Shown piece by piece: positions 3,823-11,048 of a stretch of DNA of 11,048 bases. Each line of letters starts with the position of its first letter. Position 1 is the stretch's first letter. The stretch is from the NCBI GenBank assembly GCA_029557025.1, contig JAKPRU010000507.1, forward strand, positions 1 to 11,048. The letters are read 5' to 3'. Both the position numbers and the translations under genes were made by a program. The DNA is from Candidatus Omnitrophota bacterium (GTDB lineage: Bacteria > Hinthialibacterota > Hinthialibacteria > Hinthialibacterales > JAKPRU01). The notes beneath the pieces are model-generated. The model searched no databases. It worked only from the letters and a program-made list of their open reading frames with translations, and was not told the origin of the DNA.

Positions 3823-3900
3823 AAAAGGCCAGCGCCCGCTACGCAGTCACCAGCCTATAAGATAAATTACACATCAATATGAAAAATCGTCAAGCCAATC

Positions 3901-3965
3901 ATGACAGGTATGGAGGCCTGTCCTACCATTTCAGCAGGTCAGGCGTCCTTGCCCGGTAGTCAACG
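3901..3965 (+). repeat. Dispersed repeat, copy B
   Basis: The core at 3901-3926 shares the invariant GGAGGCCTGTCC and matches copy C at 22 of 26 bases. Beyond the core it aligns with copy A as far as GTCAACG, with one 1-base gap. Its 3' end runs into the GAGGAG ribosome site of the next gene. Its first ATG is in frame with that gene, so automated gene calling may add 27 repeat-derived codons. Confidence 0.75.
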
Positions 3966-4529: not shown

Positions 4530-5171
4530 CTATTCGATCTTGTAAATCACGGCCATGCCATCTTTCTTTTGATCGGTACAACGGATAATCACCATATCGT
4601 AATCGGGATCGGTTCTCATCGCATCCAGAAAGTCTTTCATCTCGTTTGCCGATACAATGACATTGTCCGCCACGATCACCGCCCCCGCTTTCAGCATCGG
4701 TCTGATCGCCAGGAAATATTTGTAGTAGTCCGACTTCTTCGCGTCAATGAAAACAAAGTCGAATTGCCCCTCCAGGGTGGGGATCAGTTTCAATGCATCG
4801 CCTTCCATCACTGTGACAGTCTTTTCGAGACCGACCTTTCGGATATTGTCCCGGCACCGGCGGGCCGTATCGGGGTCGATCTCCACGGTGTACAGATGCC
4901 CGCCGTTCCGCTCGAATGCTATCCCCATGTAAATGGCTCCGTATCCCGTAAACGAGCCGATTTCAACTCCCCGCTGCGCCCGTGCACCGGCCACCATGAT
5001 CCGAAGAAACCGGGCATCCTCTGCGGTAGTGCAAAGATCTGTCCATGGAAATTGCGCCAGGAACTCCTCACGGAACGCCTGCATTTTGGCAGGATCGTTT
5101 TCCTGGGCAAAACAACTCAGAACAGCACACACAACCAACAGCAAGACAAAGAAAAATCGGTGTGGAATCAT
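4530..5171 (-). CDS. O-methyltransferase (Methyltransf_3 / CCoAOMT-like) with an N-terminal signal peptide
   Basis: The 213-residue protein starts at ATG 5171, preceded on its strand by GGAGAG (complement of 5178-5183). Residues 1-22 form a signal peptide (RFFFVLLLVVCAVLSCFA). Cleavage after A22 is likely; C20 within VLSC is a weak lipobox alternative. The rest is a complete class I SAM O-methyltransferase: VEIGSFTGYGAI (69-80, motif I), YTVEIDP (94-100), GDALKLIP (124-131), FIDAKKSDYY (141-150) and VADNV (167-171). D143, D169 and N170 would form the divalent-metal site, and the DGMAVIYK ending is typical. Relatives methylate catechol-like hydroxyls in the cytoplasm, so the signal peptide is unusual; substrate unknown. 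It converges on the DUF2283 gene and diverges from the Tat-protein pair. Confidence 0.85.
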   Translation of the reverse strand: MIPHRFFFVLLLVVCAVLSCFAQENDPAKMQAFREEFLAQFPWTDLCTTAEDARFLRIMVAGARAQRGVEIGSFTGYGAIYMGIAFERNGGHLYTVEIDPDTARRCRDNIRKVGLEKTVTVMEGDALKLIPTLEGQFDFVFIDAKKSDYYKYFLAIRPMLKAGAVIVADNVIVSANEMKDFLDAMRTDPDYDMVIIRCTDQKKDGMAVIYKIE

Positions 5172-5325: not shown

Positions 5326-5372
5326 ACTGAGATGTTGTGAGCCGCACCATTCCACTCCCCAAGGAGACGGCA

Positions 5373-6257
5373 ATGACAATCGGACGGCGGGAGTTTCTGC
5401 AACAAAGCGCACTGGCATCGTCGGTTCTGATGACAGGCCATTCGGAGGTTTCGGCATCGAAAAAGGCAGCCACACGGCTGCGCGATGTCGGTTGGGTTTG
5501 GGAAGGACAGGGACTCGATCCGCACGTCCCACCGTCAATTTACGGCTTGGGCCAGGGGACAACCTATCTCGGCCTGCAACGTGCTAATTTCCTCTTTCAT
5601 CCCACCGATGAATATGCATTGGGGCTGCTTGCCGACCTGAAAGAGATCACCTGCGATATCACAAAATGGGAAACGTTTTGGGATAAGGACGGACATCTAA
5701 GATTTGATTGCTTCGGCGGGGCAGAAAGGAAGATGGATGAGGCAAAGCGGATCAGCCTTCTGTCGAAAACATTCCCGAACATTACCGGCGTTTTCTTTGA
5801 CGATCTCAAAGGTCGAATGGAGCACGACAAGGTTGCGCCGGAGCAGATCGCCGAGATTTTTGCCGCTGCCCACACCTATAATCCGAACCTGAAACGCTGG
5901 GCGGTGGTGTATACCGGCGAGCTGGACGACGTGGCCTTATGGAAATCCCTGGCCCCGTCAATTGATGTTGTGAACCTGTGGATTTGGCATTCGAAGGATA
6001 TTGAAACGCAGGAATCCGAAGTGAACCGAGCGCGGGAGATTTTCACCGACCATGAGTTTATCATGGGCTGTTATCTGCGGGATTATACGATGGTCGCGCC
6101 GATTCCGGTTGAACAGGTCATGCTCCAAATGAAGGGTGTCCTGAGAATGCTGGAGAAAGATCTGATACAGGGATTTTCCATTCTGGGTTCGGTTCTGATC
6201 GACAGTCATCGTCCACAGGCGGACGCCGTGAGGGATTTCATCGGCGCAAATTCATAA
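5373..6257 (+). CDS. Tat-exported barrel-like protein of unknown function
   Basis: A protein of 294 residues, starting at ATG 5373, 6 bases after AAGGAG (5361-5366); an earlier in-frame GTG at 5337 lacks such a site and would put 12 residues before the Tat motif. Residues 4-20 are a twin-arginine signal (GRREFLQQSALASSVLM), so the protein is probably exported folded. The mature part alternates predicted strands and helices in the manner of a TIM barrel: ITGVFFDDLKG (137-147), RWAVVYTGELD (175-185), IDVVNLWIWHSKDIE (197-211), IMGCYLRDY (230-238) and GFSILGSVLID (267-277). D143, D144, E183, W203, H206 and D237 sit at strand ends, where glycosidase-type active sites lie, but I cannot name a family. 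It is followed by the Gfo/Idh/MocA gene after 25 bases, so the two are probably co-transcribed. A role in carbohydrate processing outside the cytoplasm is inferred from that context. Confidence 0.8.
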   Translation: MTIGRREFLQQSALASSVLMTGHSEVSASKKAATRLRDVGWVWEGQGLDPHVPPSIYGLGQGTTYLGLQRANFLFHPTDEYALGLLADLKEITCDITKWETFWDKDGHLRFDCFGGAERKMDEAKRISLLSKTFPNITGVFFDDLKGRMEHDKVAPEQIAEIFAAAHTYNPNLKRWAVVYTGELDDVALWKSLAPSIDVVNLWIWHSKDIETQESEVNRAREIFTDHEFIMGCYLRDYTMVAPIPVEQVMLQMKGVLRMLEKDLIQGFSILGSVLIDSHRPQADAVRDFIGANS

Positions 6258-7617: not shown

Positions 7618-10600
7618 ATGACCGGGGGATCTGCTTTGGGGAGGTTCTTTTGGATTTCTTTGTCGCTGGCGATCCTTGCGGGAGTTCCCGATATTATTCC
7701 CGCCGAAAACTGGCCGATGTGGCGCTATGATGTCGGCCATACCGGGTCATCCCCGGAGCAGTTGTCCGAAAACCTCCATATACAATGGATTCTGGAGTTG
7801 CCGACTCCGATTCCCTGCTGGCCGTACCCATCCCAATACAAGGTCCAGTTCGATCACACTTACGAACCGATTGCGATGGATGGACTGCTGTTTGTCCCCT
7901 CTATGATCCGGGACTGTATGACTGCGTACGATGCGGAGACCGGTGAGGAACGCTGGCGATTCTACACCGATGGCCCGGTCCGGTTTGCCCCCGCCGGCTG
8001 GAACGGCAAGATCTATTTCGTTTCGGATGATGGTTGTCTTTATTGTCTTGATGCTGTCAGCGGCTTGCAGGAATGGAAGTTTTCCGGGGGACCGTCAAAC
8101 TACAAAGTTCTGGGAAACGAGCGGCTGATTTCGATGTGGCCGGCGCGTGGCGGGCCGGTAATCGCGGACGGAATAGTCTATTTTGCCGCAAGCATCTGGC
8201 CGTTTATGGGAACGTTTATCTATGCGCTGGATGCCGAAACCGGCACAGTGAAATGGACCAACAGCGGCAGCGGACCGGACTATATGCTGCAACCGCATAC
8301 CAGTCCCGCGTTCGCCGGAGTCTCTCCCCAGGGAATCCTGGGACTGACAAAGGACAAGCTGTTCATCCCCGGCGGCAGGAACCGCCCGGCGGCCTACGAT
8401 CGCGCCACCGGCGAATTCCTGTATCAACATGGCGATACTAAATTGGGCGGATGTGAGGTGTATCTGTCAAAAGAGTGGTTCTTCAATGACGGACAGATTT
8501 ACCAAGTCTCCGACGGAACCCAGATCGGACCTTCCGTAGCCACAATTTTGACGGACGAATCGATGATCGGCATGGATGAATCCGGCACCATCCACGCCTG
8601 GTCATGGGATCCGGTTTGGAAAGAATATGCCGACCGGCGCGGGACACCGCAAAAACGCATGGAATTTGGTCAGCAATGGAAAGCGAAGACACCATTCAAA
8701 AAACTGTTGATTCGCGCGGGAGATCACTTATACTGCGGTTCTCCCGGATTGATCGCCGCCGTTCGGATACCCGAAAACCGAGGCTCCCTGAATGCTTCCA
8801 TTGTCTGGCAGGCGGAGATTGAAGGAAATCCATGGTCCGCACTGGCGGCAGACGGGAAATTGTTCGTGATCACGGAGGAAGGACGGATTTACTGTTTCGG
8901 CGAGAGAGAAACCGAAACGAAAGTGCATTCCCTCCCGCAACCGGAAGAATCCTCCGGGACCGGGATATCGGCTGCGGCGCAGATCCTGGAGACCACAGAA
9001 GGATACTGCGTCGTTCTTGGTGCGGGTACGGGTGATCTGATTGAGTATCTGGCGCGTCAGTCCGCACTCCACATCGCCGTTCTGGAACCGGATTCACAGA
9101 AAGTCGACTCCCTGCGTCACCGATTCGACAACGAAGGGCTGTATGGACAGCGGATCGCGCTCATTCCCGGAAGTCTTCTGACGGTTCCCCTGTCGCCCTA
9201 CTTCGCGAGCCTTGTCGTGGTGGCGGACACGAAAGCGGCAGGGGTCGACAGGGAGCATTTCGTAGAGCGAGCGTTTCACGTTTTGCACCCTTATGGAGGT
9301 GTTGCCTGGCTGCCCAAAGAAAAAGGTCTGGAAAACCGTTTGCGCAAATCAGCAGATTCGCTGCCGAATGCGGAGATCGTAATACAGGATTCGTATCTCC
9401 TGTTGAAACGAAACGGAGCGTTGCCGGGCAGCGGCAGTTGGACCCACCAGTATGGGGATATGTCGAACGATGTCTGTTCCAAGGACCAATTAGTCAAACC
9501 CCCGTTGGCGCCGCTCTGGTTCGGTGGCCCTTCGAACGCAGATGTGCTTCCCCGGCACGGTCATGGCCCGCCAGAGAAAATCCTGAACGGACGATTGTTT
9601 ATCCAGGGGATTCAGGTTCTGAGCGGACGGGATGTCTACACCGGACGGGTTCTCTGGAGAAAAGAGATCCCGAATTTGAACACGTTCGAGATGTATTACG
9701 ACAAAACTTACAATCCCGATCCGTTCGACCGGACCTACAACCAGGTCCATCTCCCCGGCGCAAACGCCTACGGTTCCAATTTTGTCCTTGCTCCTGACCG
9801 GCTTTACCTGGCTATGGAGAACATCTGCATGGTCCTTGATCCGGCAACGGGGGCAACCCTGAACGAGTGGACAATTCCGCTTGAAACGGATTTCCTGGAT
9901 TACGGCACGCCGAACTGGGGGTATATCGGAGTCTACGAGGACTTGCTGATTGCAGGCGCTGCGCCGGTTTATATCACGGTTAATGGGGCAAAGGAGATTG
10001 TGAAAGTGAATCACCGTTTCGGCGTCGGCAGCCGATACCTGGTGGCCATGGACCGGGTCACCGGGAAACGAGTCTGGCAGCGAAAAGCCCTGTACAATTT
10101 CCGGCATAACTCCATTGTGGCCGGGAACGGCAAGCTGTTTTGCATCGACAATCTCTCCCCGCAGCAGATGGAAGTCCTGAAACGTCGGGGACTGGAAGCG
10201 CAAACCGAACCAAAAATCCTCGCTCTCGATATTCGAACCGGGAAGGAACTGTGGAGTCGCGGGGAGGATGTGTTCGGGACATGGCTGGGGTATTCCACAG
10301 AATACGATCTGCTGTTGGAGGCAGGGAGCCAGGCGGGAGATCGAGCCAAAGATGAAATCGGCGAAGGCATGGCCGCCCTCAACGGCTCAACGGGTGAACC
10401 TCTTTGGAGAACGAATGAAAAATACCTGGGTCCCTGCATGATTCACCACGACAGGGTGATTACACAAACCGGAGGCAGTACCCAGGAATCGGTGTATGCC
10501 GGGGCGTTTTCCCTGTTGACCGGGGAACGAGTTATGACTACCCATCCGCTGACCGGTGAAAAGATTCCCTGGAGCTGGGTTCGGTTCAAAGGCTGCAACA

Positions 10601-11048
10601 CGGCGATCTGCAGCGAGCATTTGCTGACATTCCGCTCCGCCGCTGCGGCGTATGTGGATCTCACCCAAAACAGCGGAACGGTCAATATCGGCGGATTCCG
10701 TTCCGGCTGCACATCGAACCTGATTGCAGCAGACGGCGTCCTGAACGCACCGGACTATACCCGCACCTGCACTTGCTCATACCAGGTCCAAACTTCCCTG
10801 GCATTGGTCCACACACCATTCGAGATTCCGGAAAATCCCTGGGTGGAACAGTGGAGTTTCAATGCGTATCCCCCGCCGGAACAACCTATGCCGATTAAAC
10901 GGGTTGGGATCAATTTCGGCGCACCCGGGAACTATATCGATGGCAAGGGAACTCTGTGGCTGGAGTTTCCCAGTGTCGGCGGGCCGTCGCCCGATCCTCC
11001 GATCTATGTCGATTCCGGTGATCCGAAGATCTTCCGCTATCAGCCCTC
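7618..11048 (+). CDS. Exported PQQ-like propeller / methyltransferase-like / PQQ-like propeller protein (3' end cut off)
   Basis: One uninterrupted frame gives 1143 visible residues. Residues 1-29 are a signal peptide (hydrophobic FFWISLSLAILAGV, possible cleavage after IPA), followed by the BamB/PQQ-like opening WPMWRYDVGHTG. Propeller-type 'xxDxxTGxxxW' units occur at 102-113, 141-153, 201-213 and 258-269. A class I methyltransferase-like insert spans about 445-600, with loop VVLGAGTGDL (465-474), IAVLEPDSQKV and later HVLHPYGGVAWLP. After WTHQYGD (608-614) propeller units resume at 671-680, 738-751, 810-820, 868-879 and 919-930. A cysteine group follows at C993, C998, C1031, C1051 and C1053, then a start of another region (IKRVGINFGAPG). 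From memory, Planctomycetota-type genomes encode relatives with this order, usually annotated only as PQQ-binding-like or BamB-like propellers. No function is known to me. The acidic residue often preceding the glycine loop is Val466, so SAM binding is uncertain. Confidence 0.85.
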   Translation, partial: MTGGSALGRFFWISLSLAILAGVPDIIPAENWPMWRYDVGHTGSSPEQLSENLHIQWILELPTPIPCWPYPSQYKVQFDHTYEPIAMDGLLFVPSMIRDCMTAYDAETGEERWRFYTDGPVRFAPAGWNGKIYFVSDDGCLYCLDAVSGLQEWKFSGGPSNYKVLGNERLISMWPARGGPVIADGIVYFAASIWPFMGTFIYALDAETGTVKWTNSGSGPDYMLQPHTSPAFAGVSPQGILGLTKDKLFIPGGRNRPAAYDRATGEFLYQHGDTKLGGCEVYLSKEWFFNDGQIYQVSDGTQIGPSVATILTDESMIGMDESGTIHAWSWDPVWKEYADRRGTPQKRMEFGQQWKAKTPFKKLLIRAGDHLYCGSPGLIAAVRIPENRGSLNASIVWQAEIEGNPWSALAADGKLFVITEEGRIYCFGERETETKVHSLPQPEESSGTGISAAAQILETTEGYCVVLGAGTGDLIEYLARQSALHIAVLEPDSQKVDSLRHRFDNEGLYGQRIALIPGSLLTVPLSPYFASLVVVADTKAAGVDREHFVERAFHVLHPYGGVAWLPKEKGLENRLRKSADSLPNAEIVIQDSYLLLKRNGALPGSGSWTHQYGDMSNDVCSKDQLVKPPLAPLWFGGPSNADVLPRHGHGPPEKILNGRLFIQGIQVLSGRDVYTGRVLWRKEIPNLNTFEMYYDKTYNPDPFDRTYNQVHLPGANAYGSNFVLAPDRLYLAMENICMVLDPATGATLNEWTIPLETDFLDYGTPNWGYIGVYEDLLIAGAAPVYITVNGAKEIVKVNHRFGVGSRYLVAMDRVTGKRVWQRKALYNFRHNSIVAGNGKLFCIDNLSPQQMEVLKRRGLEAQTEPKILALDIRTGKELWSRGEDVFGTWLGYSTEYDLLLEAGSQAGDRAKDEIGEGMAALNGSTGEPLWRTNEKYLGPCMIHHDRVITQTGGSTQESVYAGAFSLLTGERVMTTHPLTGEKIPWSWVRFKGCNTAICSEHLLTFRSAAAAYVDLTQNSGTVNIGGFRSGCTSNLIAADGVLNAPDYTRTCTCSYQVQTSLALVHTPFEIPENPWVEQWSFNAYPPPEQPMPIKRVGINFGAPGNYIDGKGTLWLEFPSVGGPSPDPPIYVDSGDPKIFRYQP

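Follow-up and report, generated by a model that had tools for sequence, protein, structure and literature searches.

What does a methyltransferase fold do between two propellers in a protein that appears to be exported? The question is raised by a stretch of 11,048 nucleotides from a Candidatus Omnitrophota bacterium, hereafter the window, which is an entire contig (JAKPRU010000507.1, C834 in our numbering) of a 4.69 Mb genome assembled in 1271 contigs (GCA_029557025.1). At 7618-11048 (+) the window holds one open frame of 1143 codons, running from an ATG at 7618 to the contig end without a stop. With modest confidence, we lean towards a recruited methyltransferase fold that is now mostly a structural module within a secreted scaffold or ligand-binding protein. 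If this is true, the fold of an S-adenosylmethionine (SAM) enzyme has been exported and retained for a structural use, with repeated decay of its cofactor site. The family is large, and a search of the open-access literature found no paper on it, in line with an earlier note on this DNA that knew of no functional description. The parts of the gene are the following.

7618..11048, + strand: exported propeller-methyltransferase-propeller gene, residues 1-1143, cut by the contig end (from the frame and a tail on contig C106)
7618..7704, + strand: signal peptide, residues 1-29, from the hydrophobic sequence, with cleavage probably near the junction of IIPA and EN
7705..8925, + strand: propeller 1, residues 30-436, predicted to have about eight blades
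8965..9420, + strand: class I methyltransferase-fold domain, residues 450-601, from structure prediction and fold matches
9019..9036, + strand: SAM loop (motif I), GAGTGD at residues 468-473, unaltered in the window
9085..9087, + strand: E490, an acidic position where strand 2 ends
9286..9300, + strand: HPYGG, residues 557-561 (mostly RPYGG in relatives), at the edge away from the SAM side, with hardly any variation
9439..10809, + strand: propeller 2, residues 608-1064, about eight blades by strand count
10594..10776, + strand: four cysteines, 993, 1031, 1051 and 1053

The earlier note, made from the sequence alone, had described a single frame of at least 1143 codons, an exported product and GAGTGD at residues 468-473. 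The frame and the motif are exactly as it placed them, and the hydrophobic N-terminus is consistent with a signal peptide; here and throughout, signal peptides were judged by reading the sequence and with a crude hydropathy script, not with SignalP. The missing C-terminal end was traced to another contig of the same genome, where C106:3-482 matches P0002, a complete homologue, at 97% over residues 1142-1301. For this reason the full-length window protein is put at about 1301 aa. P0002, which comes from another genome of the same genus, is 97% identical to the window protein, has 1301 aa and ends in a C-terminal malectin domain.

The window protein belongs to the PQQ-like (pyrroloquinoline quinone) propeller superfamily, as judged from a PQQ_2 (PF13360) match of 4.4e-27 (95.7 bits, cut-off 27.6) together with the fold of propeller 1. 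The predicted model places roughly 32-35 strands on each side of the methyltransferase domain, consistent with two propellers of about eight blades each; this number comes from strand counts, joined for residues 30-431 by fold matches to BamB-like propellers, and for propeller 2, which the fold search hardly probed, it is a strand count only. Propellers on either side had thus been recognized correctly, but the four and five units assigned to them were an undercount. The Methyltransf_25 (PF13649) match at residues 467-560 (9.1e-5) scored 23.5 bits, below the curated cut-off of 27. We nevertheless take the fold as settled because residues 450-601 are predicted with confidence to fold as a class I methyltransferase, with the helix and strand order and the fold matches of the seven-stranded Rossmann-like class, in agreement with the Rossmann methyltransferase domain placed earlier at about 445-600. 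The GxGxG of the SAM loop and the acidic residue after strand 2 are both present in the window protein; the position of E490 is one that we take to be the ribose contact in SAM enzymes.

The homologues expected in related genomes proved widespread, with 2791 proteins at E <= 1e-3 among 7996 candidates scored. A protein set was formed from the best 120 of these 2791, and a named-genome set from the best 80 of 576 loci found by two sequence patterns, so that conservation inside those patterns is biased by how the loci were found. The resulting alignment has 201 rows (121 proteins and 80 loci), of which 197 are distinct, as protein and locus rows are partly the same proteins. A hydrophobic N-terminus was scored in 108 of the 121 family proteins. 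The record titles of the 80 named loci included Planctomycetota (35), Verrucomicrobiota (16) and Armatimonadota (6) among others, and the closest two were ‘Candidatus Omnitrophota’ metagenome assemblies. The family is also present in metagenome records whose titles name Akkermansia muciniphila or Klebsiella pneumoniae (L063, L065, L073 and L092), and these titles look unreliable.

Whether residues 466-490 are conserved, a point raised in the earlier note, has a divided answer. The methyltransferase domain itself is retained over the 201 rows, but its SAM loop reads GxGxG in 135 and GxxxG in 26, and is lost in 40. On a tree built without the methyltransferase domain, the distribution of lost and kept loops (GxxxG counted as kept) requires at least 24 changes. 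The loop as GxGxG and the acidic residue after strand 2 occur together in 131 rows, while one or both are altered in 70. Grouped by identity to the window, the numbers of GxGxG, GxxxG and lost loops are 44, 1 and 3 at 54% and above (n=48), 74, 10 and 10 at 48-54% (n=94), and 16, 15 and 27 at 42-48% (n=58). Other positions of the domain are near-invariant. G462, R500, Y509-G510, R512, Y528, RPYGG 557-561 and G600 are conserved at 95-100% overall and at 93-100% in the rows that have no SAM loop. They lie mostly at the starts of strands 1-5, with R500 in a helix and G600 past the last strand; SAM binds at the edge where methyltransferase strands end.

This inversion was compared with two controls. 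Mean entropy in the family was 1.13 at the strand-start edge versus 2.15 at the SAM edge. For UbiE, represented by 31 rows from 30 of 37 places found in related and distant genomes and identified by the Pfam and NCBIfam matches of the query, the order was reversed, with 2.28 at the strand-start edge and 1.20 at the SAM edge. It was reversed too for an exported-looking O-methyltransferase, also encoded in the window, at 0.78 and 0.51 respectively (120 rows). In both controls the SAM side is the conserved side, a criterion that we drew from them ourselves and from which the family domain departs. The domain also changes quickly: between the window and L038, nonsynonymous divergence (dN) was 0.103 in the methyltransferase domain versus 0.048 and 0.062 in the propellers. 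Its ratio to synonymous divergence (dN/dS) was 0.15, indicating purifying selection, which was seen as well in pairs that have lost the loop (0.11 for L102-L113, for example). It is because the domain is faster-changing yet purified, with inverted conservation and recurrent loop loss, that we read the fold as kept for structure.

The share of columns conserved at 95% or more was highest in propeller 2 (96/458), followed by propeller 1 (67/406) and the methyltransferase domain (15/152). Each of the four cysteines of propeller 2 was found in 201/201 rows, with Cys1051 falling inside one of the two patterns used to find the named loci. Together with the malectin domain, these features suggest that propeller 2 has a site for ligand binding or catalysis, possibly with glycans. 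The protein as a whole would then be a secreted scaffold or ligand-binding protein with two complete propellers and a terminal malectin domain, a sugar-binding type. Its middle domain would descend from a SAM-dependent class I methyltransferase and retain that fold, held by selection across the family for structure while the SAM side drifts and the loop is lost many times. The conserved edge opposite the SAM pocket is presumably packed on the propellers or on a partner, and the domain most probably serves as a rigid joint, holding both propellers in a set mutual orientation. The main function would reside in propeller 2, with its four invariant cysteines and invariant His, Arg and Asp, and in the malectin domain, where glycan binding is plausible. 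The window copy itself may no longer methylate.

The family also occurs in a split form, with propeller 1 in one frame and the methyltransferase domain plus propeller 2 in another, in 10 of 11 genomes sampled. The window genome has it on contig C282 (L034), and further loci are L033 and L117-L127; in G002 the halves lie on separate contigs, in G007 only propeller 1 was seen, and in L120 the gene order is reversed. The methyltransferase part is preceded in the window genome by a domain with a purple-acid-phosphatase-N-like match below cut-off and in L118 by a laminin G domain, while none was seen in L119. A candidate start with a signal-like N-terminus was found for 10 of the 11 split methyltransferase halves, the weakest in L117, and the eleventh is cut by a contig end. 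Since the halves have such N-termini, export of the methyltransferase domain does not seem to depend on propeller 1.

Several points weigh against a structural role for the domain, above all in the window copy. The loop sets behind the entropy comparison were chosen manually with the conserved positions already in view, and so we give more weight to the contrast with the controls than to the permutation p of 0.0006, which ignores relatedness. Sequences in the O-methyltransferase control are more alike (55% identity and up) than are many in the family, several of the dS values are saturated and the pairs compared are not independent. The window clade is mostly loop-intact, 44 of the 48 other rows at 54% identity or above having GxGxG, and the entropy of the four core SAM positions is 0.56 in this close clade versus 1.13 family-wide. 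All three copies in the window genome have GxGxG (GAGTG in the window, GFGDG on C282 and GCGDG on C708), and the paralogues on C282 and C708 exceed the Methyltransf_25 cut-off, of which the window copy falls short. In the 11 split-form halves, 4 loops read GxGxG and 6 GxxxG, and 1 is lost. GxxxG is also the spacing of the O-methyltransferase loop, and thus a changed loop is no proof of inactivity. Loop loss shows no supporting link to the conserved ATP-binding cassette (ABC) operon, being if anything rarer beside it (4/23 vs 25/57, p 0.04 uncorrected). On balance the evidence for a structural role is stronger for the family as a whole than for the window copy, because the window clade and both paralogues keep the loop. 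The earlier note had left three options for the insert, namely another ligand, a structural remnant or an exported enzyme with an unusual cofactor supply; conservation favours the structural one family-wide, and the loops kept in the window clade and both paralogues leave the exported enzyme in play there.

Such an enzyme would be an active exported SAM-dependent methyltransferase of the window clade, whose substrate (a glycan, a metabolite or a protein) is gripped by the propellers or the malectin domain and whose SAM is provided outside the cytoplasm. We regard this as unlikely. Besides the intact loops just described, the window keeps GAGTG together with E490, and the same genome encodes an exported-looking O-methyltransferase with invariant key residues and an exported-looking isoaspartate methyltransferase (PCMT). 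Even in the close clade, however, entropy is higher on the SAM side (1.61) than on the opposite edge (0.85), and the window has S519 and A536 where D is found in 31/56 and E in 45/56 aligned rows. No conserved substrate gene was seen, and elsewhere in the family the loop has been lost repeatedly.

The O-methyltransferase that bears on this question is encoded on the opposite strand of the window.

4530..5171, - strand: O-methyltransferase gene, separate from the propeller protein, whose product has a signal-like N-terminus (from Pfam and alignment)

Its product is related to COMT and the caffeoyl-CoA enzymes. Among the best 120 of 951 homologues (window copy included), 111 have a hydrophobic N-terminus, E70, G72, G76, D125 and D143 are present in all 120, and position 97 is always acidic (102 E, 18 D). 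Across 21 related loci from the window genome and others, 11 have a signal, 7 have none and 3, which start at the match, were unscored. This enzyme is possibly more striking than the propeller protein. The PCMT gene at C953:3975-4748(-) (L166/L209) scores above its NCBIfam cut-off and encodes an exported or lipoprotein-like N-terminus; a second copy on C119 does not. Of 50 places with PCMT-type loci, 30 were examined, and the N-terminus was signal-like in 17 and not in 13. A methyltransferase census of the window genome took 30 of 35 matches, 29 of which gave rows, and the script flagged 5. L152 was discounted as an exported methyltransferase owing to an ambiguous frame, as was L157, whose hydrophobic stretch is the domain itself; the C708 paralogue was not flagged as its locus is cut, and its N-terminus was read separately. 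The exported-looking O-methyltransferase and PCMT hint at SAM outside the cytoplasm without proving it, and they weaken the premise of the earlier note that SAM is not known in the periplasm. With intact-looking SAM sites in both enzymes of one genome, the availability of SAM outside the cytoplasm becomes testable. Methylated secreted and outer-membrane proteins are described in a portion of a review of extracellular protein modification (PMC10450907).

A broader proposal can be built on these leads, in which usable SAM exists outside the cytoplasm and serves several exported methyltransferases, the domain of the window clade is active on a glycan or protein gripped by the propellers, and sister lineages have retired the domain to a structural joint. 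We consider this less probable again. More doubtful still is that the domain binds another ligand, nucleotide-like or an acidic metabolite, as a sensor that shifts the arrangement of the propellers. G468 is retained in 97% of rows while G470 (72%) and G472 (82%) vary, and D stands at position 470 in 35% of loop-lost rows and 35% of GxxxG rows, a patterned rather than random change; yet no single replacement loop is conserved and the whole SAM side is variable. Slightly lower still, and improbable in our view, is that one of the propellers, 2 or 1, works as an oxidoreductase, of quinoprotein type or another, with the methyltransferase fold as a mere linker. Sequence and fold matches to PQQ alcohol dehydrogenases were obtained and propeller 1 gave a fold match to tetrathionate hydrolase, but the PQQ dehydrogenase model TIGR03075 scored 46.9 bits against a cut-off of 480.05. 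A vicinal cysteine pair near PQQ, presumably a feature of the PQQ-dependent dehydrogenases, is absent from the window protein (P0001) and P0002 and present in only 9/121 family proteins, and CxxCH is found in 0/121; the protein thus falls outside the quinoprotein dehydrogenases. A sequencing or assembly fusion of unrelated genes, conceivable since the assembly is broken into 1271 contigs, of which this is one, and named in the earlier note as something that would refute its reading, can be dismissed almost entirely, given the identical architecture at 97% identity in a second genome of the genus and across the family, where a segment of 140-220 aa is aligned at the methyltransferase-domain site in 80/80 named loci.

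Part of the family shares conserved neighbouring genes. A partner protein has ACSVPVFRYALERW, or a close variant, near its start, a CSC or CAC motif and a hydrophobic segment towards the C-terminus, and no Pfam match was obtained in four members scanned. Examples, with FtsX/ABC genes nearby in some loci, are the following.

L044, 6500-7678, - strand: ACSVPVFRYALERW protein
L060, 11612-12751, + strand: ACSVPVFRYALERW protein
L030, 6276-7544, + strand: ACSVPVFRYALERW protein

This protein was found in 19/80 named loci, an FtsX-type permease in 9/80 and either in 23/80. It is held by 23 of 92 clustered loci, at most three genes away on the same strand in 22 and directly adjacent in 18, and it occurs in 11 of 41 genomes, all of which also have a strong family match. 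The paralogue on C708 adjoins an ABC ATPase and an FtsX permease. The wider-family partners, which are the ACSVPVFRYALERW protein, the FtsX permease, the ABC ATPase and solute-binding proteins, suggest an envelope system. The neighbourhood analysis proposed in the earlier note gave no clue to the window copy, which lies beside none of these genes and for which we set the conserved neighbourhood aside; the ACSVPVFRYALERW protein was not found in its own, incomplete, genome.

Closer relatives share other neighbours. A 306-aa protein encoded at 5337-6257 (+) of the window has a twin-arginine translocation (Tat)-like N-terminus by eye and no Pfam or NCBIfam match. This protein and a 3-keto-disaccharide hydrolase (on C106) lie beside the gene in G001 too, and are absent from the stretch of G002 examined. 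An aldo/keto reductase gene, assigned from the Pfam match of the G002 copy, lies downstream on the opposite strand in the window (via C106), G001 and G002. Elsewhere in the window a 33-base direct repeat, 85% identical, at 2950-2982 and 3900-3932 flanks a DUF3800 gene, and its second copy is at the start of a PBECR2-type nuclease-like gene. The available part of a Tuwongella proteome paper (PMC8567305) contained none of the PQQ or propeller terms.

Compared with known systems, the domain shares with the class I SAM methyltransferases (3dlc MMP1179, COMT and UbiE; PF13649) the predicted fold at 450-601 and, in the window copy, motif I as well as an acidic residue following strand 2. The window family differs in being exported and in having the domain inserted between propellers, with a drifting SAM side, a loop repeatedly lost and, in the window, a Pfam score below cut-off. 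Propeller 1 has the fold of the BamB and Rv3035-type PQQ-like propellers, which are extracytoplasmic. Unlike BamB, however, the window family has two propellers, an inserted domain and malectin, and the window protein is not a BamB member, its TIGR03300 score being 55.5 bits against a cut-off of 285.2. In PRMT5-MEP50 and Trm8-Trm82 a propeller is paired with a methyltransferase fold, but as separate chains with WD40 propellers, in active intracellular enzymes; the window protein has this combination in a single exported chain. METTL14 and DNMT3L are treated in part of PMC10908127 as catalytically inactive methyltransferase folds kept for support or regulation. The likeness to these, within what that part covers, would lie in a methyltransferase fold retained without a working catalytic site. 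METTL14 and DNMT3L, on the same partial account, exert their effect on a related enzyme of the same family that is active, whereas the domain of the window protein is exported and lies within one chain.
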